Virus record (IMG/VR): IMGVR_UViG_3300042987_002978
Coordinates: 40,852 to 104,851 of that record
Origin: a virus
Direction: 5' to 3' (one strand)
Length of the DNA stretch: 64,000 nt
The notes under the pieces are model-generated. The model did not search any database and was not told the DNA's origin. It saw nothing but the letters and a program-made list of their open reading frames with translations. A program made the position numbers and the translations under genes. Below, piece by piece: positions 16,771 to 32,247 of the stretch; position 1 is the first letter of the stretch, and every line of letters starts with the position of its first letter.

Positions 16771-16776
16771 AAAAAT

Positions 16777-17451
16777 ATGTTGATTCAGCCGTACGCAATC
16801 TACGACAATTTCTTGGATGACCCAAGCGCAGTAATCAGGTCTCTTCGCTCGCAAAGGTATTACGTGCAGGGACTACCGGATACGGGACAAGTGTCGAACA
16901 ATGACATACCTCTGGAAATCAACTACGGAGACGAAAGCGTCACCGGAGACCCGAGGTTTGGTTCGCCCTACTGGAAGGGCTACAGGACCAGGGACCTGCA
17001 AGAAATAGACATGGACAGTTACAACATAATCATGAGCAAGTTGCTTGAGCACATATTCGGCTCGTTCACATTGGCACAGATTGAGTTTGACGCCGAAACA
17101 CATTTCCACCTCATGACCAAAGACTTTGTTTTTACTGATACGTGGTTCCACTCCGACGCCAGCAAATTCATTGCCGGCGTTTTGTACCTGGCAGAAGACC
17201 CTGGTCCGAACAGTGGGACGGCGCTGATGATAAACGGTGAAAAAGTCTCAATAGAAAACAAGTTCAACAGGTTGATTGTCTATAACGCTGGCTTGACGCA
17301 CAGCGCAGAAGGCTGTTTCGGGGACTCGCTTGAGAACTGCAGGGCTACGTTTGTATTTTTTATCCGGAATATCTTGCTGTTCAACGACATATTGGAACAG
17401 CAGGAACCGACATCAATGGGCAATCAGCACAATTACATAGGCGGATACTGA
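16777..17451 (+). CDS. DUF6445-like / 2OG-Fe(II) oxygenase-superfamily protein
   Basis: Encodes 224 residues. Seen: an N-terminal YAIYDNFLDDPSAVIRSLRS typical of short phage and bacterial oxygenase-like proteins, DTWFHSDASKF as the HxD site, a VLYLAEDPGPNSGTAL strand, and GLTHSAEGCFGDSLENCRATFVFFI as the distal His and Arg. It is predicted to be cytoplasmic. It lies seven bases before the carbamoyltransferase on the same strand, so the two form a small operon and probably act on the same molecule. Confidence 0.7.
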   Translation: MLIQPYAIYDNFLDDPSAVIRSLRSQRYYVQGLPDTGQVSNNDIPLEINYGDESVTGDPRFGSPYWKGYRTRDLQEIDMDSYNIIMSKLLEHIFGSFTLAQIEFDAETHFHLMTKDFVFTDTWFHSDASKFIAGVLYLAEDPGPNSGTALMINGEKVSIENKFNRLIVYNAGLTHSAEGCFGDSLENCRATFVFFIRNILLFNDILEQQEPTSMGNQHNYIGGY

Positions 17452-17458: not shown

Positions 17459-19165
17459 ATGAGAATCGTAGGAATAAGTACCGCGCACGATAGTTCTGTT
17501 GCCTCATATTGCGACGGCGAAATTGAGTTCTTCATGAAAGAAGAGCGGATTACCAAGCGCAAGAGGGACAAGAACCCATTCGCAGCCATGGTGGAAACGG
17601 CCAAATTCTTGGGCAACAAGAAAATCGACGCAGTCGCGGTATCTGCACCGCACAACACTGATGTCGACAGTTACTTGTTCGCGATAATCGATGCCGCGAC
17701 AAAGATTTTCAAGACAAACAACATATACAAACTCTTCAACAGCCATCACTTGTGCCATGCTTCGTTGGCTTTTTACAACAGTGGATTTGACAATGCTGTC
17801 GTGGTAATCGTGGACAGAAACGGCTCGAACAATCCGAATTCAAATATGCTGCTTTTCGAGTCCGAAACGGTTTTCACCGCGGAATACCCAAGTTCATTCA
17901 AGGAAATAAAGAAGAACTACTGGCTTGCGCAGCGCGGGCAAAGTTCTGATGCGTTCCTGTTGGAACTCGTTCCCAGAGAGAAAACAAAGAGACCAGGATG
18001 TGAAATATCGTACGAGAGTTTGTACGGCATCACCAAGGTCTACGAAACTGCGACCATTCTCATAGGCGAAGGAATTCTGGAAAACGGCAAGACGATGGGA
18101 CTTGCTGCATACGGGAACGAAAACCAAGATTTTCCCAATCTGTTTCTTGACAACGGCTGTCCCAACGACTCCCTGTTCTCCTATGCGATGAGCAGTCGTG
18201 ACAATACGCTTGCTGCGATATATAAAGAATACGCAGGCAAGATGACCAAAACGGTCGACAAAAACGACTATCAGTTTTATGCGGACTATGCGTATCAAGT
18301 TCAAAAGCAAACACAAGAACAGGTGGCAAAACTCATTGAGACGGCGGTACAGCGAACAGGCATAAAGAACGTTTGCGTCTCTGGTGGTTACGGTTTGAAC
18401 GTTGTTGCCAACGGCTACTACATATCGAAGTTCCCAGACGTCAATTTCTTCTTTGAGCCGCTCGCCGATGACACCGGGAACAGCATTGGCGCGGCAATGC
18501 TTGTTTATAGAGAATTGTCAAAAGACAAAACCATACGACCGTTGAAGTCGACTTTCTTCAACGGCCACGAGCCGCATATTTCAGCAGAAGAATTTGACAG
18601 GCACCCGATTTCATATGGCAAGGCAACCGTCAACGATGTTGCAAGATTGTTGGCGGACAACGCAAAACTTGCCATGTTTGCCGGCAAGGCGGAGGGCGGT
18701 CCGAGAGCGCTCGGGAACAGGTCGATTTTGTTTTACCCAAATCTTGCCGACTCAAAAGACATCGTAAATCGAATTAAGAAACGAGAGTGGTACAGGCCGT
18801 TTGCGGCATGTGTCTTGAAAGAAGATGCCTGGGAATACTTTGACATGATGTCGCTGACCGAAAGCCCGTACATGACCGTTTCTTTCGACTGCCGCGCCAT
18901 GACAAAAGAATTGTTTCCGGGGATTGTCCATGTTGACAATTCGTGCAGAGTGCAGACGGTAGGCGAGGAGAACAAGAACCTACATTCCTTGTTGACGGCA
19001 ATAAAAGAACTGACTGGTCACGGGTTGTTGTTGAATACAAGTTTCAATTTGGCCGGCAGCCCGCTGGTTGAAACTATTGACGATGCGATAAAGGTCATGA
19101 TGGAATCAGAACTTGAATACATCTGGATTCCAGAACACCAGACGCTGCTAGGCAAGCAGCGATAG
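17459..19165 (+). CDS. NodU/TobZ-type O-carbamoyltransferase
   Basis: Encodes 568 residues. The N-terminal Kae1-like domain carries MRIVGISTAHDSS, the metal site HHLCHASLAF (about residues 97-106) and the VDRNGSN turn. The C-terminal domain carries AEGGPRALGNRSIL, REWYRPFAACVL and LLLNTSFN. The family transfers carbamoyl from carbamoyl-phosphate via carbamoyl-AMP to hydroxyl groups on sugars or antibiotics. Some phage members have been linked to carbamoylated hydroxymethyl-cytosine. Here an oxygenase gene precedes it, which could supply the hydroxyl. It ends convergently with a minus-strand gene. Confidence 0.9.
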   Translation: MRIVGISTAHDSSVASYCDGEIEFFMKEERITKRKRDKNPFAAMVETAKFLGNKKIDAVAVSAPHNTDVDSYLFAIIDAATKIFKTNNIYKLFNSHHLCHASLAFYNSGFDNAVVVIVDRNGSNNPNSNMLLFESETVFTAEYPSSFKEIKKNYWLAQRGQSSDAFLLELVPREKTKRPGCEISYESLYGITKVYETATILIGEGILENGKTMGLAAYGNENQDFPNLFLDNGCPNDSLFSYAMSSRDNTLAAIYKEYAGKMTKTVDKNDYQFYADYAYQVQKQTQEQVAKLIETAVQRTGIKNVCVSGGYGLNVVANGYYISKFPDVNFFFEPLADDTGNSIGAAMLVYRELSKDKTIRPLKSTFFNGHEPHISAEEFDRHPISYGKATVNDVARLLADNAKLAMFAGKAEGGPRALGNRSILFYPNLADSKDIVNRIKKREWYRPFAACVLKEDAWEYFDMMSLTESPYMTVSFDCRAMTKELFPGIVHVDNSCRVQTVGEENKNLHSLLTAIKELTGHGLLLNTSFNLAGSPLVETIDDAIKVMMESELEYIWIPEHQTLLGKQR

Positions 19166-19178
19166 CCGCAAAGGCTAT
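19162..19178. terminator. Hairpin at convergent gene ends
   Basis: ATAGCC-GCAAA-GGCTAT overlaps the stop codons of the plus-strand carbamoyltransferase and the minus-strand gene facing it. It has a 6-bp stem and a weak T-rich flank. It may act as a modest bidirectional terminator. Confidence 0.4.
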
Positions 19179-19516
19179 TGATTGTTGGCCGTAAAATCTC
19201 CGGTCGTTTCGTCGTAAGTCCAATTTGGCTGGACGACGTTTTTCTGGGTCGCCTGCATGTGAACGACCTTCGGGTTGGCAGCAAGGGCAGCGGCGAGTTC
19301 TGCCGCGAGTTCTTTGTGCGCAACATGGACAGCACCGACAACCCCGTCGACGACAAGGGCAAAAAATTCATAGTCTTCTGGGTGCTCGGCAGAAGTACGC
19401 ACGGCAGGAACCTCGGAATCCACGGCATCCTGGTGATAACGAATCAACTCTTCAAGAGTCAAATTCTCGATTATCGCTCGCAGTTCTTGTTCTGTGCTCG
19501 AATCTAATGCTGCCAT
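19175..19516 (-). CDS. Hypothetical protein at end of fibre cassette
   Basis: Encodes 113 residues. It starts MAALDSSTEQELRAIIENLT; a helical first half precedes EDYEFFALVVDGVVGAVHVAH, and it ends with NWTYDETTGDFTANNQ. The last segment recalls the Trp-rich ends of the small proteins at 21456 and 24430, but identity is too low to call it a paralogue. Position suggests a virion-associated or fibre-accessory role. No family was recognised. Confidence 0.65.
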   Translation of the reverse strand: MAALDSSTEQELRAIIENLTLEELIRYHQDAVDSEVPAVRTSAEHPEDYEFFALVVDGVVGAVHVAHKELAAELAAALAANPKVVHMQATQKNVVQPNWTYDETTGDFTANNQ

Positions 19517-19538
19517 GTTGACCCCTTAATAAGGTACA

Positions 19539-19703
19539 TCACCATTTGCCGATTGGACATGAGGCCAATTTCAGGCGCGTTTTTACGCGCATGAAACACT
19601 TGCACTCTTTGCATTGGCCGGTCGGCTTGAAAAAGCGAGGACAGGCCTTGCATATGTCAAGCCGCTCTTCATGAAAAGGTCGAGATTGCGTTGACCCTGT
19701 CAT
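19539..19703 (-). CDS. 54-residue four-cysteine zinc-finger-like protein
   Basis: ATG at 19703 overlaps the upstream stop as ATGA; stop at 19539. The product starts MTGSTQSRPFHEERLD. Its core ICKACPRFF...CKECKCFMRVKTRL...CPIGKW has CxxC, CxxCxC and a final Cys, like the small DUF6171-type proteins I associate with phage tail-fibre regions. The cysteine pattern and clean overlap with its neighbour argue it is real. Probably zinc-binding; function unknown. Confidence 0.75.
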   Translation of the reverse strand: MTGSTQSRPFHEERLDICKACPRFFKPTGQCKECKCFMRVKTRLKLASCPIGKW

Positions 19704-20014
19704 TGTCCCTCTTCGGTGCCTTCAAGTGCATCAAGATATGCAGGCCATCTGTGGTTTTCAAAAATCCAAAGGCTTTGAGTCGCATTGATGTATGAATAAA
19801 TTTTTGTCGGAGGGGGATTGATGCCAGAGTCAGCGGCATCTAAAAATGCCTCGACCGCAGACCTCAATTCGCTTTTTACGTGCTCTTCAAGTGCTTCAAT
19901 GAGGCTTTCATCCTTCTCGCACAATTCAACAAGTGCGTCATCGTCAGAAAGAACGATGAACTCGCCATCGTGAATGATTACCGGACCGTTTGTTGTCGAA
20001 CGAATTTCAAACAT
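19700..20014 (-). CDS. Hypothetical acidic protein
   Basis: Encodes 104 residues: a beta-like start MFEIRSTTNGPVIIHDGEFIV, an acidic helical middle and a C-terminal YSYINATQSLWIFENHRWP. No family was recognised. AGGAA lies five bases upstream of the ATG, and a perfect TATAAT box is at 20046-20041 on the minus strand, so it probably has its own promoter. It is coupled to the zinc-finger-like gene downstream. Confidence 0.65.
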   Translation of the reverse strand: MFEIRSTTNGPVIIHDGEFIVLSDDDALVELCEKDESLIEALEEHVKSELRSAVEAFLDAADSGINPPPTKIYSYINATQSLWIFENHRWPAYLDALEGTEEGQ

Positions 20015-20040
20015 TTTTCCTGCCTTTAATAAGTTATTGC

Positions 20041-20046
20041 ATTATA
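20041..20046 (-). promoter_or_regulatory. -10 box upstream of accessory genes
   Basis: Perfect TATAAT on the minus strand, 27 bases before the ATG at 20014 and just after the Cys-rich gene. No convincing -35 is visible. Confidence 0.4.
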
Positions 20047-20063
20047 CCAAAATGGATGGGTTT

Positions 20064-20480
20064 TCAGCCGTTTTCTGTCGCGGCGTACGAGGGTGGATAG
20101 TTGCAAGAAGTGGATACCCTTGTGACAACGCTCGTGTTTGTTGGGCATGAATATGTCGTCGTATAGGTTGGGGAAGCCCCATAACCCCATTCTGGTCTGT
20201 GCAGGTTGGCGTTGTCACACGGTCCGCACCAGTTGGTGCAGTTACATCCACAACCTTGACCTGCTCCGATGCACCATCCACCGCAATTTGCGCCGCCAGA
20301 TGGGCAGTAACTGCCGCTTTGCCATGTCCACGCTGTTGCAGAATAATTCGCCGGGTAGTTGCAAGTCGTTCCGCTCAAAGAAACGATTGCCGTGTTGGTA
20401 TTGCAGGTATAGAACACGCTCCTGCGGGACAGGCCGAATCTCCTTGCCGAGCCGCCGCCCAACTTGTTTACGAATGGCAT
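20064..20480 (-). CDS. Cysteine-rich fibre-associated protein
   Basis: Encodes 138 residues with about 13 cysteines. Two copies of a T(S)xTCNYPxxYxAT motif, one mid-protein and one at the C-terminus, flank a dense region with PSGGANCGGWCIGAGQGC and NCTNWCGPCDN. The N-terminus MPFVNKLGGGSARRFGLSRRS resembles the leaders of the glycine-rich adhesin genes at 21816 and 22592. It is likely a disulfide- or metal-stabilised tip or surface protein. No known family was recognised. Confidence 0.7.
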   Translation of the reverse strand: MPFVNKLGGGSARRFGLSRRSVFYTCNTNTAIVSLSGTTCNYPANYSATAWTWQSGSYCPSGGANCGGWCIGAGQGCGCNCTNWCGPCDNANLHRPEWGYGASPTYTTTYSCPTNTSVVTRVSTSCNYPPSYAATENG

Positions 20481-20499
20481 AAGTCCCCTTGTTTAAATA

Positions 20500-21363
20500 T
20501 TAGGCGAATCGTGTCTGCGCGGCGAACACGGTGAATGTGGCAGCACCAGTCTTTACTGCGGTCATGGTGTACATATCCACCGAGTTGGCGTTTCCAGATG
20601 TCGGTGCGCCAGTAGAACCCTGCCATTCTGTCGTCACACCAGACGTCGTTCCGTTGATTTGAATCGATGTCGCGTAGTAGGGAGTCGCGCCGTTGGTGAC
20701 CATGAACGACGTGGTGGCCATTTCGCCAGTGGCGAGTTTGCTGTCCAACGTCGTGGAAGAATTCCAGCGCAGGTTGATGACAAAGTTGGCGGCCGCGTTC
20801 GACGTGTAGTAGGTGGTTCCGTTTGCGACATCAACCGCAATCGTTCCCGTTGCCGCAGTCGCAGAAATTGTGATTGGCTCGATGACCGATGTGGTCTTGA
20901 CGCTGGAGAAGGTAACTTCACTTGTCGTGCCTACGGCCTGACCAATGGCAATTGACGCAGAAGAGCCTTCGCCAGGAGTATGAGTGACAGTAACGCCCGT
21001 GCCGGCAACTACGTCAGCGACATAGTTTCCGGTTGTGTCGGTACCGAGAGCGACCGAATTGGCGGCAATCGAGGCGACACCGCCGCTTGTGATTGTCAGG
21101 TCTCCGCTTACCTTGCCAAACACGTACGTCGGGATTCTGCTTGCGTCCATTTTTCTATTGGCAGAAGCGCTAACGTCGTAAATTGGGATGTCGTCAGCGT
21201 CAACTATGTCGGCGTTGATGTCTACTGCGTTTGTAATGTCGATTCCGGCAAGGGCTGGGATGCCACTGAGCAGTCGCCAGGTGGTGCCGTCCCATTTCCA
21301 GGTTCGCTCATCGGCCACATACGTGTCATTTACCGATGGAGAGTTTGGGAAATCGATTGCCAT
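20500..21363 (-). CDS. Tail fibre protein, module A (copy 2)
   Basis: Encodes 287 residues. It shares its N-terminus with the gene at 23461 (FP-SPSVN-TY, then RTWKWDGTTWR) and its C-terminal block (TSNAAANFVINLR, SSTTLDSKLA, NGATPYY). Between these is one copy of the GTDTTGNYVADVVAGTGVT...EGSSASIAIGQ repeat that occurs six times in the giant fibre at 28153. Start is supported by TTGGAGG. It closes the second duplicated adhesin module. Confidence 0.8.
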   Translation of the reverse strand: MAIDFPNSPSVNDTYVADERTWKWDGTTWRLLSGIPALAGIDITNAVDINADIVDADDIPIYDVSASANRKMDASRIPTYVFGKVSGDLTITSGGVASIAANSVALGTDTTGNYVADVVAGTGVTVTHTPGEGSSASIAIGQAVGTTSEVTFSSVKTTSVIEPITISATAATGTIAVDVANGTTYYTSNAAANFVINLRWNSSTTLDSKLATGEMATTSFMVTNGATPYYATSIQINGTTSGVTTEWQGSTGAPTSGNANSVDMYTMTAVKTGAATFTVFAAQTRFA

Positions 21364-21455
21364 TGTTCGCCTCCAAGTGGTCCCTGTAATTATGACATAT
21401 CGACGGGGGGACTAGTTAGAAGGGAAAATCGCCCCTTGGTAATAAGGCGCAAAAA

Positions 21456-21806
21456 TCAGCCAGCGGAGACGGCGACCCATGAGGTCGTATCCTCATCCCA
21501 GCGGTATGTTTCCCCGTCGGTTGGATACGGCACCGGTGCCTGCCATCGACAGGTTGACTCGTCAAGAATCCATGAAGCAAAACGCTTAGGGATTATGAAT
21601 GCGTCTCTTTCCTGGTCATACACGCCACCGATAATTGCGTAGTTTTTCCTGAAAGAACCATTTTCGCAAGTTTCTTTCCAGGTTCCGGTCAGACCAAGAG
21701 AAGCGATAAACTGAAGGCCAATTTCTTCAGTTGGGGCATCTTCATCTGATACAAGAATGACATTGGTTACAAAATTATTTTCGTCAAGCGAAGCGTAGTA
21801 TTTCAT
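21456..21806 (-). CDS. Small conserved tail-cassette protein, module B (copy 2)
   Basis: Encodes 116 residues and is paralogous to 24430: both have VTNVI(L/V)VSD, EEIG, a GTWK motif, FRK-YA-IG, YD-ERDAFI-PK and a Trp-rich C-terminus (RWDEDTTSWV). I recall similar short proteins from fibre regions of aquatic phages. Function is unknown; a fibre-assembly helper or a virion accessory are both possible. Confidence 0.75.
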   Translation of the reverse strand: MKYYASLDENNFVTNVILVSDEDAPTEEIGLQFIASLGLTGTWKETCENGSFRKNYAIIGGVYDQERDAFIIPKRFASWILDESTCRWQAPVPYPTDGETYRWDEDTTSWVAVSAG

Positions 21807-21815
21807 GTCGTAATC

Positions 21816-22589
21816 CTACGGACGGAACCTTACGTAGACGATTCCAGAGCCGCCACTTTCGCCTCCGCTGCGCACTGCGCCGCCACCTGCCGACCAACGA
21901 GTTCCACCACCACCGCCACCAGAGTAACTTCCATTGCCAGGACCAGCACCGTTAGAACCGCCCGCACCGTTTCCACCGTTTCTTCCAGAGGTGCCGTTAC
22001 CGCCACCCATGCCGCCTTGCCCCAGCATCGGACCACCACCACCGCCGCCAGCACCACGATAAGTATGACCAGCCGGCTGACCGATGAAAGCCGAAATGTC
22101 GGTTCCGTTACCGCCATTTTGTCCTTGACCTCCACCGTTCGGGGAGCCACCACCGTCGTTACCGCCGCCACCGCCGCCGCCAGTTGAGTTGGTTTGTGAA
22201 CCAAATGTCGTAGTGCCACCATTGCCGCCGTTGCTACTAAGTGCGCCGCCACCGCCACCACCACCAATTGTGATGCTTTGATTTGATGTAAGAGTCAGAA
22301 GCAAACTTTGACGAACCTGTCCGCCACCGCCACCGCCGCCGCCGGCATCGCTACCTTCGTTGCAGCCACCTCCTCCTCCACCGCCGCCACACCATAAGAC
22401 ATCAAACTGCCCCGAGCGAGTGACGGTCAGGGTACCAGAACTGGTGAATGTCAATAAAGTATATGTCTGTCCGTCGACAGTTATGGATGAGGAACTACCA
22501 CCAGTGGCAGCGCCGTAAGGGTTGGGCACTGAGCGAAGAGAGCCAAACCCTCTTCCCGAAGAAGAACCGAATGTTCCAATAATAGGCAT
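21816..22589 (-). CDS. Glycine-rich adhesin-like protein, module C (copy 5)
   Basis: Encodes 257 residues. It starts MPIIGTFGSSSGRGFGSLRS, followed by a Ser/Thr-rich beta segment and a central region of glycine runs spaced by Asn, Ser and Thr, ending GGSGIVYVRFRP. Glycine-rich sequences of this kind can form polyglycine-II bundles like the adhesin of phage S16. It is predicted to be a distal receptor-binding tip. Unlike three paralogues it lacks the YHIYTF end. Confidence 0.75.
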   Translation of the reverse strand: MPIIGTFGSSSGRGFGSLRSVPNPYGAATGGSSSSITVDGQTYTLLTFTSSGTLTVTRSGQFDVLWCGGGGGGGGCNEGSDAGGGGGGGGQVRQSLLLTLTSNQSITIGGGGGGGALSSNGGNGGTTTFGSQTNSTGGGGGGGNDGGGSPNGGGQGQNGGNGTDISAFIGQPAGHTYRGAGGGGGGPMLGQGGMGGGNGTSGRNGGNGAGGSNGAGPGNGSYSGGGGGGTRWSAGGGAVRSGGESGGSGIVYVRFRP

Positions 22590-22591
22590 AG

Positions 22592-23452
22592 TTACACCAC
22601 CACCAAAGAGCCGCTGCCAGTAAACGTGTGAATTGTGTACGAGCCAGAAGTAGTTTTCGAGCCGCCAGTAATTGTGTAGGCACTTGCGCTTGAGGTCAAG
22701 TAGCGAACAATTACGATTCCGGAGCCGCCGCTTAAACCGCCGCCGCCGCCACCTCCACCGCCGCCAGTGTTTGCCGCTCCTACAGTTGCTCCGTTGCCAG
22801 CATCGTAATATCCACCGTTTCCACCACCACCCGCACCACCTGCTTGACTACTCGGGTCTTGACTGGCTCCACCACCACCACCGGCACGAGTTACAGAAGA
22901 GCCTGTTATGGAAGATGCCCTACCAGAGCCACCTCCACTTGTTCCTCCACCTGCAGCGGCACCACCTCCACCACCGGCTGCATCCGCACCGTTTCCGTTT
23001 CCACCACCATAACCTTGACTTGCAGTGCCGCCAAATCCGCCAGTTGCGCCTGAAGATGCACCGCCACCGCCGGAACCACCAGTACCACCGCCACCGCCGT
23101 TTCTACGACCGCCACCGCCACCCGTAGAAGTTATCGTATGAAAAACGGAGTTGGAACCGTTACCTCCTTCTGCACCACCTCCACCACCGACGGTGACCGT
23201 GTAAGTGCCGGCACCGAGAGAAAGAGCCGCTTCTGCGGCTGCGCCACCGCCCGAAGTTTCGCCGGAGACTGACGACCTATAACCACCTCCGCCACCTCCG
23301 CCGCCGTAAGCACCTATTCCTGTGTCGTTTCGGTTTCCACCGCCGCCACCGGCAACGACAAGATATTCAACGCTGAACAGCGGTCTTGCAAAGACTCGTA
23401 ATCCACCGAACCCTCTTGTTGAGGAAGAACAGAACGTTCCTGAAAGCGGCAT
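22592..23452 (-). CDS. Glycine-rich adhesin-like protein, module C (copy 4)
   Basis: Encodes 286 residues. The leader MPLSGTFCSSSTRGFGGLR matches that of copy 5. An EYLVVAGGGGG segment follows, then GYRSSVSGE, then glycine-run repeats, then LSGGSGIVIVRYLTSS and a C-terminal TTSGSYTIHTFTGSGSLVV. It shares the YLVIAGG, YR(S/T)SVSG and GSGIVIxR landmarks with the copies at 24846, 25847 and 26837. Two bases separate it from copy 5. Confidence 0.78.
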   Translation of the reverse strand: MPLSGTFCSSSTRGFGGLRVFARPLFSVEYLVVAGGGGGNRNDTGIGAYGGGGGGGGYRSSVSGETSGGGAAAEAALSLGAGTYTVTVGGGGGAEGGNGSNSVFHTITSTGGGGGRRNGGGGGTGGSGGGGASSGATGGFGGTASQGYGGGNGNGADAAGGGGGAAAGGGTSGGGSGRASSITGSSVTRAGGGGGASQDPSSQAGGAGGGGNGGYYDAGNGATVGAANTGGGGGGGGGGLSGGSGIVIVRYLTSSASAYTITGGSKTTSGSYTIHTFTGSGSLVVV

Positions 23453-23460
23453 AGTTATTC

Positions 23461-24426
23461 CTATGCGAACTTGGTCTGAGTCTCTAGCACCTGGTATGTC
23501 GGGGTTGCTGCGGTCTTGACAATCGTGAACGAGTAAACGTCAATCGACGAAGCGTTGCCTGCAGAAATTGCGGATGGAACCTTCGGAGTAACTGCCGACC
23601 CGTCAATCTGGATGACGTTCGGATAGTACGGAGTCGCTCCGTTCTGATTCATCCACACGACGGTTATCACGTCGCCTACCGCCAGTTTTGACGAAAGGGT
23701 CGTGCTTGAGTTGTAACGGAAGTTCAGCGTGTGGTTCGCCGTCGCGTTCGATGTGTAGAACCAAATCGACGATGTTGCAATGTCAATGTTGATGGTTCCA
23801 GTAGCGGCCGCGGCAACGACGTTTGCGCGCTCCTGAAGGCCCTGAACGATGAGTTCTTTCGTCAGGTTTGTGTGAGCACCGTTGATTGTCGGGCTCGTCA
23901 AGGTCTTGTTCGTCAGCGTGTCACTTGAGGATGTCGTAACGACGTTTACTCCCTCAATAGTGACGACTCCTGCCGCACTGCGGGCAAGCGTGGTGTCGTT
24001 GGCGTGGCCAAGTTCAATCGAGCCGACACCGAGAGGCGAGGTCGTTGAAGTGCCCAATTTTGAGATAGCGATGGCCGCTGCCGCATTGACATCAGCATCG
24101 ACAATCACGCCTGAAGCAATTGAAGTAACTCCGGAGGAATCAATGGTTACATCGCCAGATTCTGTAACAGAGGTGGGGACCCCAGAGGCGTTGTAAACGA
24201 TGATATTCCCAGCAGTGCTAGTAGCGAGTTTGGACAGTGCAATCGCTGCGGCTGCATTGATGTCCGCATTGACGATTGAGCCGTCGGCCAGTTCAGTCGA
24301 GCCGACCGAACCGGCACCGAGAGCACCGGTAACGATTTTCCACGAAGTGCCGTTCCACTGCCACGTGCGAGCGCCGTCAGTGTACGTCTGGTTGACAGAA
24401 GGACTTGATGGAAATGTTAACGGCAT
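23461..24426 (-). CDS. Tail fibre protein, module A (copy 1)
   Basis: Encodes 321 residues. It is paralogous to 20500 at both ends. The middle holds two repeats of the IVNADINAAAAIALSKL / IVDADVNAAAAIAISKL type, common in phage fibre shafts. It probably trimerises. It follows the module-B gene by three bases, in the same order as in the second module. Confidence 0.8.
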   Translation of the reverse strand: MPLTFPSSPSVNQTYTDGARTWQWNGTSWKIVTGALGAGSVGSTELADGSIVNADINAAAAIALSKLATSTAGNIIVYNASGVPTSVTESGDVTIDSSGVTSIASGVIVDADVNAAAAIAISKLGTSTTSPLGVGSIELGHANDTTLARSAAGVVTIEGVNVVTTSSSDTLTNKTLTSPTINGAHTNLTKELIVQGLQERANVVAAAATGTINIDIATSSIWFYTSNATANHTLNFRYNSSTTLSSKLAVGDVITVVWMNQNGATPYYPNVIQIDGSAVTPKVPSAISAGNASSIDVYSFTIVKTAATPTYQVLETQTKFA

Positions 24427-24429
24427 AAA

Positions 24430-24798
24430 TTACTCTCCTTGGGGTACGACTTCATCCCATTGAAGTTCTTCTTCGTTCCAGACCCAGAATCCTGTCTCTG
24501 GACGCGCAACCGGGGCTTCCCAGTCGCATGTTGTCTCGTTGAGAACCCAAGACGGGTACGGCTTCGGTGCGATGAATGCATCGCGCTCGGCATCATACGC
24601 ATAGCCGATTCCGGCATAACGCTTGCGGAAGTTGTTGTTGTACGAGGTTTGCTTCCAAGTGCCGCCGAGAAGATTCGTGCAGAAAGCCACACCGATTTCC
24701 TCACTGGCCGGAAAGTCTCCACCACCGCAATCGTTGTTGGATACGACGATTACCTGCGTCACGATGTTGTCCGAGTCAATTTGGGCAAAATGTGCCAT
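24430..24798 (-). CDS. Small conserved tail-cassette protein, module B (copy 1)
   Basis: Encodes 122 residues and is paralogous to 21456: IDSDNIVTQVIVVSNND, an EEIG segment, GGTWKQTSYNNNFRKRYAGIG, ERDAFIAPKPYPSWVLNETT and a tail ending WNEEELQWDEVVPQGE. It lies between glycine-rich genes and the module-A fibre. Function unknown. Confidence 0.75.
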   Translation of the reverse strand: MAHFAQIDSDNIVTQVIVVSNNDCGGGDFPASEEIGVAFCTNLLGGTWKQTSYNNNFRKRYAGIGYAYDAERDAFIAPKPYPSWVLNETTCDWEAPVARPETGFWVWNEEELQWDEVVPQGE

Positions 24799-24845
24799 GT
24801 TCTTGCTCTCCTATAGTGGTTGGCTCACATTATAGGCCATGGGCA

Positions 24846-25838
24846 TCAAAGAGTGATTGAACCCGAAGCGGTAAAAGTGTAGATATGGTAGCCGCCTGCG
24901 CCGCCATTGTACGTTGGCGAACCAGTGGTTGATGTTGCCGCCCCGTATGCAGATGTAGGCCATCGAACAATGACAACACCAGAACCACCCTGCCCACCGC
25001 TGCGCCATACCGCATCGTTGTTGAATAGTCCGCCACCACCGCCACCACCCGTGTTGCCGGTTCCTGCAGAGCCGTTGGCAGTGTGCGCTGCGCCGTTTCC
25101 GCCTCCGCCGTTTCCGCCTGCTCCGCCAGAACTGGCGGGTTGTTTTCCGGCGCATCCTCCACCGCCTCCACCGCGCACAACTGCGGACCCAGTGATTGAG
25201 GACGAGACGCCTGCGCCACCGGCACCACCAACACCGTTGATTGTGTTCGCAGCGTTACCGCCGACTGCGCCAGCGCCTCCACCACCACCGGCGGGATAGT
25301 CCTGCAATGCCGATGAACTTCCACCTGCATATCCTTGCCCTGTTGTGCCAGTTCCTGCACTGCCGCCTTCACCACCGCGACCACCACCGGAGCCACCGTT
25401 GCCTGCACTCACCGCTCCAGAACCACCACCGCCGCCGCCAGTTGCGGTTATCGTGGACAATACAGAGTTATTACCGTCGGTTCCTTTTACGTTTGCGTTT
25501 CCTCCGTAGGCACCACCTCCGCCTACCGTAACGGTGTGAGAAGTTGCGACGGCAAGAGCAAGTGTCGATTCTGCAGATGCTCCGCCTCCAGAGTTTTCTC
25601 CAGAAACTGAAGAACGATATCCGCCGGCACCACCGCCGCCGCCTTGTTCAAGTGCGCCTCCTCCGCCTCCACCGCCAGCGATGACCAGGTATTCAACCAG
25701 AACTGGTGTCATCGGCCAGTTCGATGCACCTTTTTCTTGTTGATGGCTTGCCAAACTCCACATACCCGACGCGACAGATGTAGAGATTGTCTGCTTGGGA
25801 CCGAGCCGCCCACCTTTTCTTTGTTTTTTGTTTGGCAT
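24846..25838 (-). CDS. Glycine-rich adhesin-like protein, module C (copy 3)
   Basis: Encodes 330 residues. The basic start MPNKKQRKGGRLGPKQT is followed by SGMWSLASHQQEKGASNWP, VEYLVIAGGGGGG, YRSSVSGENSG, a long run of glycine blocks and the C-terminal GSGVVIVRWP plus GGYHIYTFTASGSITL. Copies 1 to 3 share both ends while the glycine-rich interiors differ, as expected for receptor-binding diversification. Confidence 0.78.
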   Translation of the reverse strand: MPNKKQRKGGRLGPKQTISTSVASGMWSLASHQQEKGASNWPMTPVLVEYLVIAGGGGGGGALEQGGGGGAGGYRSSVSGENSGGGASAESTLALAVATSHTVTVGGGGAYGGNANVKGTDGNNSVLSTITATGGGGGGSGAVSAGNGGSGGGRGGEGGSAGTGTTGQGYAGGSSSALQDYPAGGGGGAGAVGGNAANTINGVGGAGGAGVSSSITGSAVVRGGGGGGCAGKQPASSGGAGGNGGGGNGAAHTANGSAGTGNTGGGGGGGLFNNDAVWRSGGQGGSGVVIVRWPTSAYGAATSTTGSPTYNGGAGGYHIYTFTASGSITL

Positions 25839-25846
25839 AGTTACCC

Positions 25847-26833
25847 CTAGAAAGTTATGCTTCCAGAACCGGTGAACGTGTAAATGTGATATCCGCCCGT
25901 GCTCGAATATGACGGTGAGCCTGTCGTTGATGCTGCTTGTAGATACGCGGTTGACCAGCGAATAATCACAATTCCAGAACCACCCGCTCCACCGGGACCA
26001 TCGGCTCCTCCGTCAACCATTCCGCCACCGCCGCCACCAGAGCCAGTGCTGGCCGCGCCTGCAGTAGCAGAGTTTCCATTGTTTACTGACCCACCTCTGC
26101 CGCCAATTCCAGAACCCCCGCAACCACCACCTCCGGGATTTCCGCAAGGACTGGTCACATGGGACCCGTAGCCAGCACCACCACCACCGCCGCCTGCACG
26201 AGTTACAGATGAACCTGTAATACTGTTACTTAAACCAGCGCCGCCGGAACCACCGTTGTAGTAGTCATTTGATGGGCTAGTTTGACCAGCGCCTCCAGCA
26301 CCACCACCACCCCTACCCACGTTTTGGCTGTCTGCGCCTTCACCACCGTCATAACCCTGTGCATTGGTTCCGGTTCCTTTTGAAGCACTACTACTTGCGC
26401 CACCACCAGCGCCGCCGCTTGCTCCGTTGCCGTTATATGAGCCGCCAGCGCCTCCACCAGTAGAGGTGATGCTTCCAAAAACTGAGTTGTTGCCGTTCGT
26501 TTGCGAACCACCGCCGCCGCCGACCGTTACGGTGTAAGTAGTGCCGGCAGACACGGAAAGTGGTGATTCTGCCGCTGAACCTCGCCCAGATGTGGCACCG
26601 CTGACTGATGTGCGATAACCACCAGCGCCACCGCCACCACCGCCGCGGCCGCCGCGTCCTCCACCTGCACCTCCGGCAATTACCAAATATTCAACGGTGG
26701 GCGGAGGATACAGTGTTACCGGCCAGTTCGACGTTCCTTTTTCTTGTTGCTGACTCGTCAAATTCCATACGCCGCTTGCAGCGCTAGTACTTACCGATGA
26801 GCGCGGTCCGATTCTTCCGGCGTTTAAGGACAT
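25847..26833 (-). CDS. Glycine-rich adhesin-like protein, module C (copy 2)
   Basis: Encodes 328 residues. It has the same layout as copy 3: RIGPRSSVSTSAASGVW, the SQQQEKGTSNWP block, VEYLVIAGGAGGG, YRTSVSGATSG, glycine blocks, GSGIVIIRW and GGYHIYTFTGSGSITF. It is separated from the next gene by eight bases. Predicted virion surface adhesin. Confidence 0.78.
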   Translation of the reverse strand: MSLNAGRIGPRSSVSTSAASGVWNLTSQQQEKGTSNWPVTLYPPPTVEYLVIAGGAGGGRGGRGGGGGGAGGYRTSVSGATSGRGSAAESPLSVSAGTTYTVTVGGGGGSQTNGNNSVFGSITSTGGGAGGSYNGNGASGGAGGGASSSASKGTGTNAQGYDGGEGADSQNVGRGGGGAGGAGQTSPSNDYYNGGSGGAGLSNSITGSSVTRAGGGGGGAGYGSHVTSPCGNPGGGGCGGSGIGGRGGSVNNGNSATAGAASTGSGGGGGGMVDGGADGPGGAGGSGIVIIRWSTAYLQAASTTGSPSYSSTGGYHIYTFTGSGSITF

Positions 26834-26836
26834 ATA

Positions 26837-27790
26837 TCAAAGAGTAATCGAGCCGGAGCCGTTGAATGTGTAAACGTGATATCCGCCGACGCCGCTGTTG
26901 TATGAGGGGGAACCTGTCGTAGATGTGGCAGCATTGCTGCTTGTTGACCATCTAAGAATCACCACACCAGAACCGCCAGCACCTGAAGTACCGGCACGTG
27001 TTCCACCACCACCGCCGCCAGTGTTTGCCGCTCCAGACTCGCCGTTTGCAGAAGAACCGTTTGCGCTAGCGCCACCACCGCCGGCACCGCCCGCACCAGA
27101 GGTCACATTTGCGTTACCACCACCGCCACCACCGGCGCGAGTCACAGAAGAACCAGTGATTGACGATGCCCTTCCATTCCCACCCCTACCGGCATTATTC
27201 ACCATCACTTGACCCGCTTCTCCGGCACCCCCACCGCCCGAACCGCCGTTACCTCCGCTTGCGCCACCATCAAAACCCTGACCTGCCGTACCTACGCCGT
27301 TGGTGCCAGATTCTCCACCTTTGCCGCCACCACATCCACCGTCTCCGCCATTGATTCCGTGTCCACCTCCGCCACCCCCACCGAGTGAAGTTACAGTAGT
27401 CATTCCCGTTGCGGAAATCGCGCTGTTATTTCCAGCGCCGCCTCTTTGCTGACCACTGACAACGGCGCTACCGCCGCTGCCAACAGTAACGGTCATCACC
27501 GTTCCCCTGGCAAGGGTTACGGTAGATTCGGCTGTTGAGTTTCTTCCGCTTAATTCGCCGATGACAGAACTCCTGTATCCGCCAGCGCCACCGCCACCGC
27601 CACCGGATGCGCCGTCAGCAGAACCACCACCTGCTCCGCCAGCAATTACCAAATATTCAATAGTTAATGATTGAACTGGCCAGTTATTTTGACCCTGATT
27701 TTGTTGCTGGGTATAAAGGTCCCAGAAGCCAGAAGCGCCAGACGTAGAGACCGTTTGTAACGGGCCGATGCGTCCACCGCGCCGGCGCAT
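26837..27790 (-). CDS. Glycine-rich adhesin-like protein, module C (copy 1)
   Basis: Encodes 317 residues, with shared landmarks: RIGPLQTVSTSGASGFW, QQQNQGQNNWP, IEYLVIAGGAGGG, YRSSVIGELSG, glycine blocks, GSGVVILRW and GGYHVYTFNGSGSITL. Its ATG overlaps the stop of the gene before it as TAATG. It is the first glycine-rich gene of the cassette in transcription order. Confidence 0.78.
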   Translation of the reverse strand: MRRRGGRIGPLQTVSTSGASGFWDLYTQQQNQGQNNWPVQSLTIEYLVIAGGAGGGSADGASGGGGGGAGGYRSSVIGELSGRNSTAESTVTLARGTVMTVTVGSGGSAVVSGQQRGGAGNNSAISATGMTTVTSLGGGGGGGHGINGGDGGCGGGKGGESGTNGVGTAGQGFDGGASGGNGGSGGGGAGEAGQVMVNNAGRGGNGRASSITGSSVTRAGGGGGGNANVTSGAGGAGGGGASANGSSANGESGAANTGGGGGGTRAGTSGAGGSGVVILRWSTSSNAATSTTGSPSYNSGVGGYHVYTFNGSGSITL

Positions 27791-28143
27791 TAACTAATCT
27801 CTTCGTAAGAGCAGACCGCCTCAAGGTCAGAGTTCGCGTTTGCAGTAAGACGCAGGGCATCACCTTCTTCTAGGTAAATTGCCTTGGAGATGATGTCGAG
27901 CGTCGCGTCGGCAGGAACCGAGACGGTGTTCGCGATTCGATAGGCAGTCGAGGAGCGGAACAAGTCGACGTTGATGTCCGCCGCGTTGGTGCCGTCCACG
28001 TTCGATACGTACAAGGCGTTGATTTTGAACACCTTGCCACTGGCGGCCGAGTTCGTGACGATTGCCGTCGCGCTCGTGGTGACGGCCATGACTGCCGTCT
28101 TGCCGGTGATTGTTGCTACGTTGACGATGTTCGGTGCTGCCAT
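27790..28143 (-). CDS. Virion structural protein (fibre-associated)
   Basis: Encodes 117 residues. It is a compact beta protein: VNVATITGKTAVMAVTTSAT, KVFKINALYVSNVDGTNAAD, ADATLDIISKAIYLEEGD and LRLTANANSDLEAVCSY. Similar short beta proteins accompany fibre genes in aquatic phages and may be collars or tips. Identity is inferred from context. Confidence 0.65.
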   Translation of the reverse strand: MAAPNIVNVATITGKTAVMAVTTSATAIVTNSAASGKVFKINALYVSNVDGTNAADINVDLFRSSTAYRIANTVSVPADATLDIISKAIYLEEGDALRLTANANSDLEAVCSYEEIS

Positions 28144-28152
28144 AATCTCTCC

Positions 28153-31100
28153 TTACGAACCGAAGACAATGGCCATTGCGATGGCCTTGCCAGTCGATGC
28201 ATATGTTGGTGTTTGCCATTCTAGACCAGTTGCCGTCGCAGAGTTGGCAACCAGGAGTTGGCCGTTAGTGCCAACCCCGAGACGAGTGACCGTGTCTGCC
28301 GCAGTAGCGGCCAACAGGTCACCTTTGGTCGTGACAATGTCGGTTGTCGGGTCGATGCCCCACTTCAAGCCAGTGGCAGTCGAGGAATCCGCGATGAGAA
28401 CGTATCCGTTCGTACCGACCGTCAGGTTGTCGATGGTGTCGTTGGCAGTACCGACGAGCAAGTCGCCCTTGTTGTCAATGGCGCTCAGGAGCGTGTCGAC
28501 CGCCGATGCGCCGATTTCCACCCAGTTTGAGGCGTAGTACACGTAAGTAGCACCGTCATCAGAGTCAAACCATGTGTCGCCTTCCAGCGGTGACGCAGGC
28601 GGGTTGGAACTGATTGCCAAGCGCGACGCACCGGAGATTGCGCCGACTTCAACCCATGCCGAGTCGTAGTAGACGTAGGTACGGCCGGTGTCTGACTCGA
28701 ACCAGAATTGTCCGTTCAACGGGCTGGCTGGGGCAGTGTCGGAAATCGTCGCGCCGCCAGAACCGAAGTCTGTGTATGTCGTCCCGTCGTTCGTGAACTG
28801 CCACTTGTCGGTGGTCTCGTTCCAACGGATTGCAACCGTGCTGGACGAGCCACGAAGGACCTCGAAACCGGCGTCGTCGCTCGGAGCGCCAGTGGTGACA
28901 TCGCTGTTCAGGGTGACGATATTGTCCTGGATGTTCAGGGTTCCGACAACCGTTAGGTTGTCGTCGACCGTGACGGTTCCGCCAGCGGAGTCAATCGTCA
29001 GGTTGCCTGACGTTGTGTCGATTTCGCCTGATGCGCTGACGCCGATTCGAACCGCGTCAGCAGTGACTCCGGCGAATGACGGACTATCTGACGTCCCGAC
29101 GGCTTGACCAATCGAAACGGAAGCAGTCGAGCCTTCGCCTGCCGTGTGGCTGATAGTGACACCGGTACCAGCGACGACATCTGCCATGTAGTTGCCGACC
29201 GTGTCGGTCCCAAGGTTGATTGGGTCGTTGACCCAGGCGGAGCCATTCCACTTCAGGAAGTCACCAGCAGACGCAGAGGTGATGTTTACATCACCGATAT
29301 CGTCCAGCGCCGCGATACTTTGGGCATCGACGTAGGCAGTCGAGGCGATGTCGACGTAGTTAGTTCCGTTCTCCGTGTATTCCCACTTGTCCGAAGTTTC
29401 GTTCCATCGCAACGAGACGTTGGCCGACGAGCCACGCTCAATTTCGATTCCTGCGTTCTGGCTCGGAGAACCGGTCTCGTTGCTGTTCAGGACGATGAGG
29501 TTGTCGGCGAGATTGATTGTCTCAGTGTTGACTGTCGTCGTCGTCCCGTTGACGGTCAGGTCTCCACCTATTGTTACGTTTCCAGTCGTAGTTACCTGAG
29601 CAAACTGAACCGAAGCAGAAGTTGCCACGTCTTGACCGATTGAAATTGAAGCACTCGAACCTTCGCTAGGAGTATGGACAATTGTGACGCCAGTTCCCTG
29701 AGCAAGGTCTGCCATGTAGTTGCCGGTCGTATCGGTGCCAAGAGCGACTGAATTGGCCTGAACTTGAGCAGTGATTGTTACATCGGTGGAGCCATCAAAA
29801 GAAGCCGAGCCAGACAAATCTCCACCCAATGAAATCGTGCGTGCGGTGTGCAAAGTCGTCGCCGTGTCGGCATGGAGGTTTGCAACTTCTGTAGTTGATG
29901 CGACAACGAATGGCGCACTGCCAGTAGCAATCGTGCTCTCGAAAGTCTCTGCGACTACAGGAGCAGGTGAGTATGTGCCATGGTCTGTGTCAATGGGACT
30001 TGACGGCTCAGGTGTGTACGAATCAAAGAACTTGAACTTGCCGTCCGTCGAATCACGGAAGTAACCAGCGTGCTTGTGTGAACCGTCGTAATAACTAGAG
30101 ACGACACCAGTGTCAAGACCTGCCGCGCTGGCTGTCGTGTTTAGATAGATGAAAGGATTGTCAATTTCAAGGCTGACTTGGTTCTCCGTGACAACCGAGC
30201 CGCTGACGTAGAGGTTGCGCCCGACGATTACGTCATATTGAGTCTCCAACTGATGGAACTCGACCGATGCCGACGTTCCAACGTCCTGACCGATGGCGAT
30301 ACTCGCCGAAGAACCTTCACCAGGAGTGTGGCTGACGGTTACGCCAGTGCCAGCAACAACGTCATTGACATAGTTGCCGACTGTGTCTGTTCCAAGATTT
30401 ATTTGGTCATTGACCCAAACGGCAGAGGCGCTGTCGTACTTGAGGAAGTCGCCATTCGTGAGGCCAGAGACCTTGACGTCGTGGAGTTCTTCAAGTTCAT
30501 AGCCATTCTGCGTGGCAACGTAAATGATGCCGTTGTTGGTCGCGCGAACGACCACGCCGACGAAAACGAGGTGGTCGGGCGATGATGGCTTTGTCGTTGT
30601 GACTTGGCCGTTTGTGCCGAGCCACAAAATGTCTCCGGCGTTGTAGGCCGAAAGGTCCATGCCGTTTGCATAACCGCGCGTGATGACAGAGCCATTTTGT
30701 CCTGCGGCAATTGATGCCGTTACGACACCGACAGTCTTTGACGATGTGGTGTCAGAAGTGTTGTCAGCGCGCTTTACGGAAGCATGGTCTCCGGTGCCAC
30801 CAAACAGGTAGACGACAGTTCCTGCAGTAAGTGTTGTGGCTTCGGCGTTGCGGACGTACGAAACGACTGGCGCGTACGAGTTGACCCAGCCTGCGCCGTC
30901 GTAGCCGAGAGTCTGGAATCGCTCTGGGGTGCCGACGATGACAACATCGCCAAGTTCGTTCAACCCGGCATTGAGGGCGACAGATGCGCTCGAACCTTCG
31001 CCTGGCGTGTGGGTGATGCTGATACCGGTTCCGGCAACGACGTCCGACATGTAGTTTCCGGTCGTGTCCGTTCCGAGGGCGACCGAGTTCGGTTCGACTT

Positions 31101-32247
31101 GCGCGGTAATAGTGATGTTCTGCGAACCGTCGAACGATGCCGAACCTGACAGGTCACCTGCAAGGGAGATGGCTCGTGCTGTTTCCAGCGAAGAAGCCGT
31201 AGTGGCATTTCCGCTCAGTGGAGCCGTGACATGCGCGAAAGTTACGGACGACGAAGTCTCGACGTCCTGTCCGACAGCGATGTTCTTATACGTAGTTCCG
31301 TCTTCGGTTATTTCCCACGAGTCAGTCGTTTCGTTCCAAAGGAGCGAGACGTTAGTTGAACTTCCACGCTCAATCTCGATTCCGGCAGTACCAGAAGGCA
31401 CTCCGGTTACATTGGCATTGAGAACTATGGTGTTGTCTTCGACAAGCAGGTCTTGAGTGTTTAGGGTTGTTGTCGTTCCATTTACTGTCAAATCACCAGA
31501 AATCGTCACTTGCGCAAATGTGACAGAAGCAGAAGTTGCCACGTCTTGACCGATTGCGATTGAGGCCGACGAACCCTCGCCAGGAGTATGACTGACAGTT
31601 ACGCCAGTGCCTGCAACGACATCGTTGACATAGTTACCTGTCGTATCTGTGCCAAGCGCGACAGAGTTTGGTTCTACCGATGCGGTGATTGTGACGTTGC
31701 TTGACCCGTCAAACGATGCAGAACCGCTCAGGTCTCCACCAAGCGAAATCGTTCTTGCGGTCTCAAGCGTCGTGGCCGTATCTGCATTGCCAGTCAAGTC
31801 TCCGGTCACATTGGCAGAAACATGCGCAAAAGTTACAGATGCAGATGTAGCGACGGACTGTCCGATTGAGACAGTCGGAGTCGCTGCTTCACCAGAGTTT
31901 CCGGCGAGCGTGACGCCGGTTCCGGCGACAAGTGACTCGACGTAGTTGCCGACTGTGTCAGTAGAAAGATTTACGGCATCGTTAATCCAGGCAGATGCTG
32001 AACTGTCATAGCGCAAAAAGTCGCCACCTGCGACACTGCTTATTGTTACGTCAGCAAGGTCGTTTATAGAACTCAGCGAAAGCGGGACGTGTGTGTACGA
32101 AAGGGAGTTCCATGCAGTGGTCCCGTCGCCTACCTTGAATTTCCTGGTGTCGGTTTCATAGCCAATTTCTCCAGCAAAAAGAACCGGGTTATTGGACACC
32201 CATGATGCAGCAGTACCGCGCTTGACTTGAATCCTTGCTCCGGCCAT
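28153..32247 (-). CDS. Giant tail fibre with internal repeats
   Basis: Encodes 1364 residues. It starts MAGARIQVKRGTAASWVSNN with the phage-fibre motif LFAGEIGYETDTRKFKVGDG (about residues 24-43). Six copies of a GTDT(T/V)GNY...AGTGV...EGS(S/T)AS(I/V) repeat follow, interleaved with a DLTVNGTTTT / AGIEIERGSS / WNETTDSWE repeat (three strong copies plus one degenerate). The C-terminus repeats ASPLxGxxWFxSDxGxTYVYY twice. It is presumably a long trimeric shaft. Repeat identity suggests internal recombination. Its start overlaps the upstream stop as TAATG. Confidence 0.85.
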   Translation of the reverse strand: MAGARIQVKRGTAASWVSNNPVLFAGEIGYETDTRKFKVGDGTTAWNSLSYTHVPLSLSSINDLADVTISSVAGGDFLRYDSSASAWINDAVNLSTDTVGNYVESLVAGTGVTLAGNSGEAATPTVSIGQSVATSASVTFAHVSANVTGDLTGNADTATTLETARTISLGGDLSGSASFDGSSNVTITASVEPNSVALGTDTTGNYVNDVVAGTGVTVSHTPGEGSSASIAIGQDVATSASVTFAQVTISGDLTVNGTTTTLNTQDLLVEDNTIVLNANVTGVPSGTAGIEIERGSSTNVSLLWNETTDSWEITEDGTTYKNIAVGQDVETSSSVTFAHVTAPLSGNATTASSLETARAISLAGDLSGSASFDGSQNITITAQVEPNSVALGTDTTGNYMSDVVAGTGISITHTPGEGSSASVALNAGLNELGDVVIVGTPERFQTLGYDGAGWVNSYAPVVSYVRNAEATTLTAGTVVYLFGGTGDHASVKRADNTSDTTSSKTVGVVTASIAAGQNGSVITRGYANGMDLSAYNAGDILWLGTNGQVTTTKPSSPDHLVFVGVVVRATNNGIIYVATQNGYELEELHDVKVSGLTNGDFLKYDSASAVWVNDQINLGTDTVGNYVNDVVAGTGVTVSHTPGEGSSASIAIGQDVGTSASVEFHQLETQYDVIVGRNLYVSGSVVTENQVSLEIDNPFIYLNTTASAAGLDTGVVSSYYDGSHKHAGYFRDSTDGKFKFFDSYTPEPSSPIDTDHGTYSPAPVVAETFESTIATGSAPFVVASTTEVANLHADTATTLHTARTISLGGDLSGSASFDGSTDVTITAQVQANSVALGTDTTGNYMADLAQGTGVTIVHTPSEGSSASISIGQDVATSASVQFAQVTTTGNVTIGGDLTVNGTTTTVNTETINLADNLIVLNSNETGSPSQNAGIEIERGSSANVSLRWNETSDKWEYTENGTNYVDIASTAYVDAQSIAALDDIGDVNITSASAGDFLKWNGSAWVNDPINLGTDTVGNYMADVVAGTGVTISHTAGEGSTASVSIGQAVGTSDSPSFAGVTADAVRIGVSASGEIDTTSGNLTIDSAGGTVTVDDNLTVVGTLNIQDNIVTLNSDVTTGAPSDDAGFEVLRGSSSTVAIRWNETTDKWQFTNDGTTYTDFGSGGATISDTAPASPLNGQFWFESDTGRTYVYYDSAWVEVGAISGASRLAISSNPPASPLEGDTWFDSDDGATYVYYASNWVEIGASAVDTLLSAIDNKGDLLVGTANDTIDNLTVGTNGYVLIADSSTATGLKWGIDPTTDIVTTKGDLLAATAADTVTRLGVGTNGQLLVANSATATGLEWQTPTYASTGKAIAMAIVFGS

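Follow-up and report, generated by a model that had tools for sequence, protein, structure and literature searches.

Proposed tandem receptor-binding fiber units with class-specific, exchangeable tips and a candidate tip chaperone in a virus contig

Glycine-rich tip adhesins, fiber chaperones and N-terminal compatibility between tip and fiber are already known (available parts of PMC12892980 and PMC9608196), and marine phage islands carry variable host-recognition genes, including fibers, C1q-like genes and Fe(II)-oxygenase genes (available part of PMC3909814). In the T2/S16-type gp37-gp38 system, a separate glycine-rich adhesin sits at the fiber end and its N terminus must match gp37; a chimeric T2-PP01 gp38 was made functional with T2 gp37 by an N-terminal swap (accessible text of PMC12892980). 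Pam3 pairs a glycine-rich tip, gp24, with a separate chaperone, gp25 (PDB 7ypx and 7yfw), and the branched tail-spike complexes of Ackermannviridae contain several receptor-binding proteins with variable C termini, arranged through conserved N-terminal interaction domains (accessible text of PMC11414711). Each of these three arrangements would have a counterpart in the locus described here, a run of fiber, tip and small-protein genes in a window of 64,000 bases (bases 40852-104851 of the 104,851-base virus record IMGVR_UViG_3300042987_002978); the N-terminal domain of gp25, for instance, weakly resembles the small protein that we call B.

We consider it likely that the locus encodes three tandem receptor-binding fiber units, with class-specific docked, exchangeable tips and B as chaperone. 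Unit 1 would comprise a large fiber (LF), the connector X1, the tips C1 to C3 and then B1; unit 2, the fiber A1, the tips C4 and C5 and then B2; and unit 3, the fiber A2 and the tip D, with no B. The distal end of each fiber (X1 in unit 1, the A-type C-terminal domain, Ac, in units 2 and 3; both are called anchors below) would hold a tip via the short N-terminal segment of that tip, its dock, and two dock classes, I and II, would separate unit 1 from units 2 and 3. The remainder of the tip would be a body that binds the receptor and can be exchanged, in most cases a glycine-rich brush and in relatives also a LamG lectin, a beta-propeller, fn3 or others, while B would act as a folding chaperone for the glycine-rich tips. 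Tips with a common dock might give a mixed fiber population, and they could be gained, lost or swapped with the fiber left unchanged. The computation itself supports the register, the pairing of dock with anchor, the reshuffling of docks and bodies, the association of B with glycine-rich bodies and the predicted folds; docking as such, receptor binding, chaperoning, joint display of tips and any influence on host range are inferred from these.

Order and register of the fiber units

A sequence-only reading of the window had proposed the gene order CCC-B-A-CC-B-A, and both the open reading frames (ORFs) and an all-against-all comparison bear it out: nine intact, nearly gapless genes are transcribed from the minus strand in the order C1, C2, C3, B1, A1, C4, C5, B2, A2. 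The stretch that it gave to this pair of modules, 19175-27790, does contain all nine, but it stops short of LF and X1, the two genes at the head of the first array, and it also covers D, E and 19175-19516, none of which belongs to C, B or A.

The register is a different matter. That reading had ended each module with the fiber, and the neighbors of the genes place the fiber before the tips. Among 127 B genes (the set drew on IMG/VR, from which 80 of 593 and 22 of 22 confirmed B relatives were retained), a glycine-rich gene lies immediately upstream in 94, and an A-like gene immediately downstream in only 16 (8 with the A N terminus, 5 with A+C and 3 with Ac); the other followers were 79 of an unlabelled class, 19 glycine-rich genes, 6 further B genes and 7 cases with nothing called or a contig end. 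A docked tip directly follows Ac in 101 of 106 cases. Three single-unit loci (L104, L057 and L070) have the order A-C-B, and a natural A+C fusion gene occurs at 3333-4556 of L010. Together, the neighbors of B, the single-unit loci and the fusion indicate that the natural unit is fiber, connector where there is one, tips and B, and the units computed for the window would be LF-X1-C1-C2-C3-B1, A1-C4-C5-B2 and A2-D.

The A, B and C proteins proved paralogous across both modules, as the same reading had held. B1 and B2 are 48% identical over 116 amino acids (E 1.6e-34), and A1 and A2 36% over 335 amino acids (E 2e-39). The C proteins were compared by Z values against residue shuffles that preserve glycine content: within C1 to C3, dock pairs score Z 17-25 and body pairs Z 29-31, the C4 body reaches Z 20-24 against those bodies and 4.9 against the C5 body, and the C5 body is weakly related to every other C body (Z 2-6.5). 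Because these values are high for C1 to C3 and C4, the likeness extends beyond glycine-rich composition. The C4 dock matches that of C5 (Z 11.5) and scores ~0 against those of C1 to C3, so that C4 is, by sequence comparison, a chimera of a unit-2 dock and a unit-1-like body.

Five different glycine-rich, adhesin-like tips are present, again as first read, and they resemble solved phage glycine-rich tips. The curated cut-off of Gly_rich_2 (PF21722), 24.3 bits, is passed by C1, C2, C3 and C5, with C4 just below at 21.8 bits; we found no paper on this family in the open-licence PMC literature. A model of C4 (pLDDT 89) matched Pam3 gp24 (Z 12.2, 2.7 Å, 159 residues; E ~0.01 by sequence profile) as well as the tail tip of Bxb1 (Z 12.1, 2.9 Å, 156 residues); the first unrelated structure below these scored Z 3.8. 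No gp38 chain was among the sequence or Foldseek matches listed, which excludes nothing.

Docks, anchors and the exchange of tip bodies

Loci were also fetched with the two anchors instead of the tips, keeping 80 of 592 confirmed relatives of Ac and 80 of 572 of X. The full set of loci has 106 genes with Ac at the end and 102 with X, of which 3 and 6 lack a called next gene; removal of repeats left 92 and 77 distinct next-gene N termini, two of the 92 coming from the window itself. Nearly all Ac followers begin with MPxxxxxGxxSARGFG (dock II; MPxxxxxGAASARGFG in a fuller form), and nearly all X followers bear ..SASGIWxL....NWP (dock I). Of the 92 and 77 followers, 50 and 17, respectively, fall outside the glycine-rich class, which allows the dock to be tested separately from the body. 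With a threshold set at 0.5% of cleaned control N termini, a dock II profile built from the 42 glycine-rich tips matched 45 of the 50 others, and one built from those 50 matched 39 of the 42; among X followers they matched 0 and 1 of 77, and 5 of 1019 controls each. Dock I profiles of 36 residues also crossed tip types (12 of 17 and 56 of 60), matching no Ac follower (0 of 92 for both) and 4 and 5 of 1042 controls. A 46-residue version with cleaned controls gave 11 of 17 and 58 of 60; it was an earlier run, with 46 residues and uncleaned controls, that had to be replaced, as second tips were scored as negatives and the stretch entered the glycine-rich body. Part of the dock I misses are wrong start calls (L012 and L034 were started inside the gene). 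Profiles trained on the three docks of the window only were weaker, at 71 of 90 for dock II and 35 of 77 for dock I (1% of uncleaned controls).

For 54 of the 56 listed followers that are not glycine-rich, Pfam gave DUF7483 (18), LamG_3 (6), Lcl_C (6) and fn3 (3), plus beta-propellers; L245 and L026 were left out of their alignment. A link is also seen on the other side of X: of the 70 distinct genes that precede X, 60 have KAIA or KSIA near the C terminus (GKAIAMAIVFGG), as does LF, compared with 79 of 3855 ORFs overall, a background that includes these preceding genes themselves (the 70 exclude 27 repeats and 5 X genes that have no gene before them). As the X genes were the bait, this is linkage on the upstream side only.

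Arrays like that of unit 1 occur elsewhere. Three consecutive dock I tips follow the X anchor in 9 cases, two in 8, one in 73 and none in 12 (17 of 102 anchors thus head arrays), a count that includes anchors from repeated or near-identical contigs and in which short contigs lose later tips. C3 and later array tips retain the dock, although other tips separate them from the anchor. Divergence is faster in tip bodies than in anchors: in L189 and L214, X is 95%, the dock 43% and the body 26% identical, and in L183 and L169, Ac is 99%, the dock 100% and the body 54% identical. Outside the window, 161 glycine-rich bodies had a match, and the nearest neighbor crossed dock classes for 8 of the 116 bodies of class I and for 21 of the 45 of class II; this exchange is suggestive only, because dock I labels may be false positives (the 46-residue profile enters the body).

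Among named phages, CRP-738 has gp31 ending in Ac (E 1.5e-41) and gp30 with dock II, not glycine-rich, and DSL-LC04 has the order X, a glycine-rich dock I tip, two genes, B and a 1365-amino-acid lectin with dock I; judging from their genes, both share the layout of the window units. In DSL-LC04, a 2OG oxygenase gene stands immediately upstream of B. HTVC025P, CRP-143 and Melnitz-3 have a glycine-rich gene immediately before B with no clear dock I or II (the Melnitz-3 gene scores 17.0 on the 46-residue dock I profile, below the threshold of 23.1), which probably reflects further dock classes. The gene before B in phiPsal1 was not recognized as a docked or glycine-rich tip. Other tip N termini seem paired with other upstream ends: TGTDAS-type (L046 and L049), IQQM-type (L025, L030 and L054) and MTLPSSG-type (L040, L042 and L069). 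These sequences suggest that more than two dock classes exist.

The candidate chaperone and alternative explanations

The presence of B follows the tip body. In the anchor-fetched loci, after removal of repeats and contig ends, B comes directly after the last tip behind Ac in 18 of 24 cases when that tip is glycine-rich versus 0 of 36 when it is not, and behind X in 34 of 46 versus 2 of 7; combined, this is 52 of 70 versus 2 of 43 (Fisher 3.4e-14). For Ac and X, respectively, 12 and 11 contig ends, 7 and 9 repeats and 1 and 8 loci without a docked tip were set aside. The two exceptions are L214, whose array has a glycine-rich tip in the middle, and L201, which lies just under the glycine threshold. 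The window conforms, with B1 and B2 closing glycine-rich arrays and the non-glycine tip D lacking a B. A model of B1 from a 52-sequence alignment (pLDDT 92) found the Pam3 chaperone gp25 as its best solved match, although Foldseek gave this weakly (E 0.47); it scored Z 2.3 against the Mu fiber-chaperone complex (5yvq_B). Profiles of B, Ac and X, run by sequence against solved structures, returned no convincing relative, the best for B being a cerebellin fusion (E 0.015, 24 residues). From the model, B is a probable chaperone for glycine-rich tips.

It could also be, or be in addition, a part that stays in the virion, for example as a cap for those tips. This is unlikely, and it would be compatible with the rest of the proposal: fiber chaperones can remain as caps (available part of PMC10579305) and B is widespread and well conserved, but its fold match is gp25, which mass spectrometry did not detect in Pam3 virions according to the accessible text of PMC9608196.

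The sequence-only reading had explained the locus by tandem duplication of one whole C-B-A unit, retained for wide host range or expression switching. Duplication would account for the paralogy, and true sister pairs of B do occur, but we find a recent one very unlikely here. In a tree of 109 B proteins, with many forks without resolution, B1 falls in a set of 11 (support 99/97) with ten B genes of other contigs and B2 lies outside it, its best match being L056 (62% identity). The A2 shaft derives from LF, which it matches at 58-73% over 65-77 amino acids, not from A1; C4 is a chimera, and the register contradicts a C-B-A unit. Between A1 and A2 or B1 and B2, blastn found no DNA match, which also makes an assembly-made copy unlikely; global DNA alignments of A1/A2 and of the C1/C2 docks collapsed to few columns and were not used. 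In L010, the B genes at 2961-3329 and 8001-8369 are sisters (99/98), a real recent duplication unlike the window. Nor did switch machinery appear among the families searched, and phase switching and diversity generation are disfavored: the 104.8-kb record, which may be a fragment, matches neither PF00078 (reverse transcriptase) nor PF00239 (serine recombinase), a search that did not extend to tyrosine recombinases, there is no inverted repeat of at least 22 bases within 19000-32400, and a promoter and terminator scan found promoter-like sites no more often than by chance. A wide host range from the multiple tips seems plausible.

Neighbor descent without a binding code, in which the N-terminal motif is tied to the upstream gene through joint inheritance only, is in our view unlikely. 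The genes do overlap or lie within ~20 nucleotides of each other, and docks are near identical among close relatives, but one dock precedes unrelated folds, second and third tips keep it away from the anchor, and C4 combines dock and body across units. The apparent exchange of bodies across dock classes also argues against common descent as the whole cause of the dock-anchor link. That each tip bears the next on its C terminus, making one long composite instead of alternatives, is scarcely probable: C1 to C3 have similar C termini (GGYHVYTFxGSGSITL), but the last tips of arrays and single tips end alike, and every array tip has a dock that fits the anchor.

Docked, exchangeable tips with a B chaperone nevertheless have several results against them. 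Common descent of neighboring genes could explain part of the dock-anchor link, and 24 of 45 class II bodies keep a class II nearest neighbor. Behind 106 Ac anchors, one docked tip was found in 101, none in 5 and two in 0, which makes the C4-C5 pair unusual (the loci of the window itself, L001 and L002, are too short for the pair to be counted). In the monomer model of C4, the dock (residues 1-23) is short, of low confidence (pLDDT ~51) and without predicted secondary structure; this may fit a segment that orders upon binding, and shows nothing. The D dock matches the C4 dock poorly (Z 1.6), and for 18 of 70 glycine-rich tips the next gene is not B. Residues 1-78 of B match 7ypx_a, which we infer from its length and the paper to be gp25, only weakly (Z 5.4, 1.8 Å, 53 residues), and B as modeled is without the helical trimerization domain described for gp25: its C-terminal part consists of strands, with no helix after residue 44, so that the helical domain conserved among Tfa proteins is absent.

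By its major head protein, the phage is closest to actinobacteriophages (Cantare, 52% over 78%), which hints at an actinobacterial host without proving one. Nearest among eight contigs searched is the 117-kb record of L010 (56% in the head protein, 38% in the portal), and its set of units differs, which indicates that units are gained and lost.

Coordinates, neighboring genes and relation to known systems

Table 1. Features of the fiber locus, in positions of the window
Feature	Description	Positions	Strand	Evidence
LF	1364-amino-acid fiber, Mtd_N domain, C terminus STGKAIAMAIVFGS; heads unit 1	28153..32247	-	PF18454 E 8.6e-14; tail-fiber PHROGs
X1	117-amino-acid connector, LF to dock I tips	27790..28143	-	relatives 72-89% identical; dock I tips downstream
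C1	glycine-rich tip, dock I	26837..27790	-	PF21722 E 2.1e-17, 64.4 bits; phrog_2295
C1 dock	dock I segment	27653..27790	-	dock profiles, shuffle test
C2	glycine-rich tip, dock I	25847..26833	-	PF21722 E 4.6e-11, 43.6 bits
C2 dock	dock I segment	26696..26833	-	Z 17-20 to C1 and C3 docks
C3	glycine-rich tip, dock I	24846..25838	-	PF21722 E 1.3e-13, 51.9 bits
C3 dock	dock I segment	25689..25838	-	scores as dock I though absent from follower set
B1	probable tip chaperone, closes unit 1	24430..24798	-	phrog_7759 E 5e-46; model pLDDT 92; Pam3 gp25 Z 5.4
A1	unit 2 fiber	23461..24426	-	phrog_5906
Ac of A1	distal end of A1	23464..23796	-	alignment
C4	glycine-rich tip, dock II with unit-1-like body	22592..23452	-	model pLDDT 89; Pam3 gp24 Z 12.2, Bxb1 Z 12.1
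C4 dock	dock II segment	23381..23452	-	dock II profile, shuffle test
C5	glycine-rich tip, dock II	21816..22589	-	PF21722 E 6.5e-10, 39.8 bits
C5 dock	dock II segment	22518..22589	-	Z 11.5 to C4 dock
B2	probable tip chaperone, closes unit 2	21456..21806	-	phrog_7759 E 4.7e-33
A2	unit 3 fiber, LF-like shaft	20500..21363	-	phrog_5906; repeat D2 common to LF
Ac of A2	distal end of A2	20503..20835	-	alignment
D	138-amino-acid cysteine-rich, non-glycine-rich tip; dock II; not followed by B	20064..20480	-	matched by dock II profile trained on glycine-rich tips only
D dock	dock II segment	20409..20480	-	Z 4.5 to C5, 1.6 to C4

Coordinates are collected in Table 1; phrog_5906, a family that carries no functional annotation, covers the C-terminal domain of A. 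Two small genes follow D, at 19700-20014 and 19175-19516, with no Pfam family above cut-off; their relatives adjoin D-like genes in L004 and L010, and the second was rejected as a third B (2.2 bits against the B profile). Immediately downstream of the fiber units, 13357-17451 and 17459-19165 hold a carbamoyltransferase (PF16861, E 3.5e-53), two genes with weak likeness to 2OG-Fe(II) oxygenases and two glycosyltransferase-like genes; these might modify the fibers or cell-surface sugars. The 1077-amino-acid protein at 10075-13308, with a C-type lectin domain (PF00059, E 6.3e-05) and no PHROG, is possibly a further adhesin. Farther away lie a subtilase (52416-53570; PF00082, E 1.1e-37) and a B12-type ribonucleotide reductase (50490-52415). 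The end of the record (62000-64000) has a G+C content of 0.62-0.66 compared with ~0.53 elsewhere, with an odd final 200 bases, and is possibly a foreign or badly assembled contig end.

A broader picture, which we offer tentatively and with doubt slightly outweighing confidence, is that aquatic phages draw on one pool of receptor-binding tips, which fit onto unrelated fiber ends via a few mutually exclusive docks, each phage having several sockets and each socket several tips, so that virions or clonal bursts carry mixed adhesins and B travels with the glycine-rich tips. If true, tip-fiber specificity could be read from the first 16 to 40 residues that the tip gene encodes, for proteins whose usual annotation is hypothetical, and adhesins, fibers and chaperones would become recognizable in uncultured aquatic phages. 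It would also account for the transfer of tips between unrelated phages with the virion kept functional, and compatibility of tip and fiber could be tested by simple pull-down. The widespread family phrog_7759, to which B belongs and whose role was unknown, would gain a probable function.

In open-licence PMC papers, we found no description of the two docking motifs (the motif letters themselves were not searched for), of their link to two fiber ends, of tip arrays on one dock or of a link between phrog_7759 and glycine-rich tips. The differences from the systems introduced above are specific. Pam3 gp24 is a whole fiber with its own long N-terminal helical baseplate anchor, as described in the available part of PMC9608196, whereas the tips of the window have short docks behind separate fibers or connectors, several per fiber; C4 has no gp24-type helical N terminus, and B lacks the helical domain of gp25. 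In the T2/S16 type, a single gp38 sits at the gp37 tip, in contrast to arrays of up to three tips and two dock classes here, with the same dock carrying unrelated folds. The spikes of Ackermannviridae are joined by gp10-like XD and TD domains (accessible text of PMC11414711), unlike fiber-end tips on segments of ~16-40 residues. Finally, the brush domains of mycobacteriophages (Bxb1 tail tip, PDB 9d93) share the glycine-rich fold of the C4 body but belong to tail-hub structures, according to the accessible text of PMC13243795.

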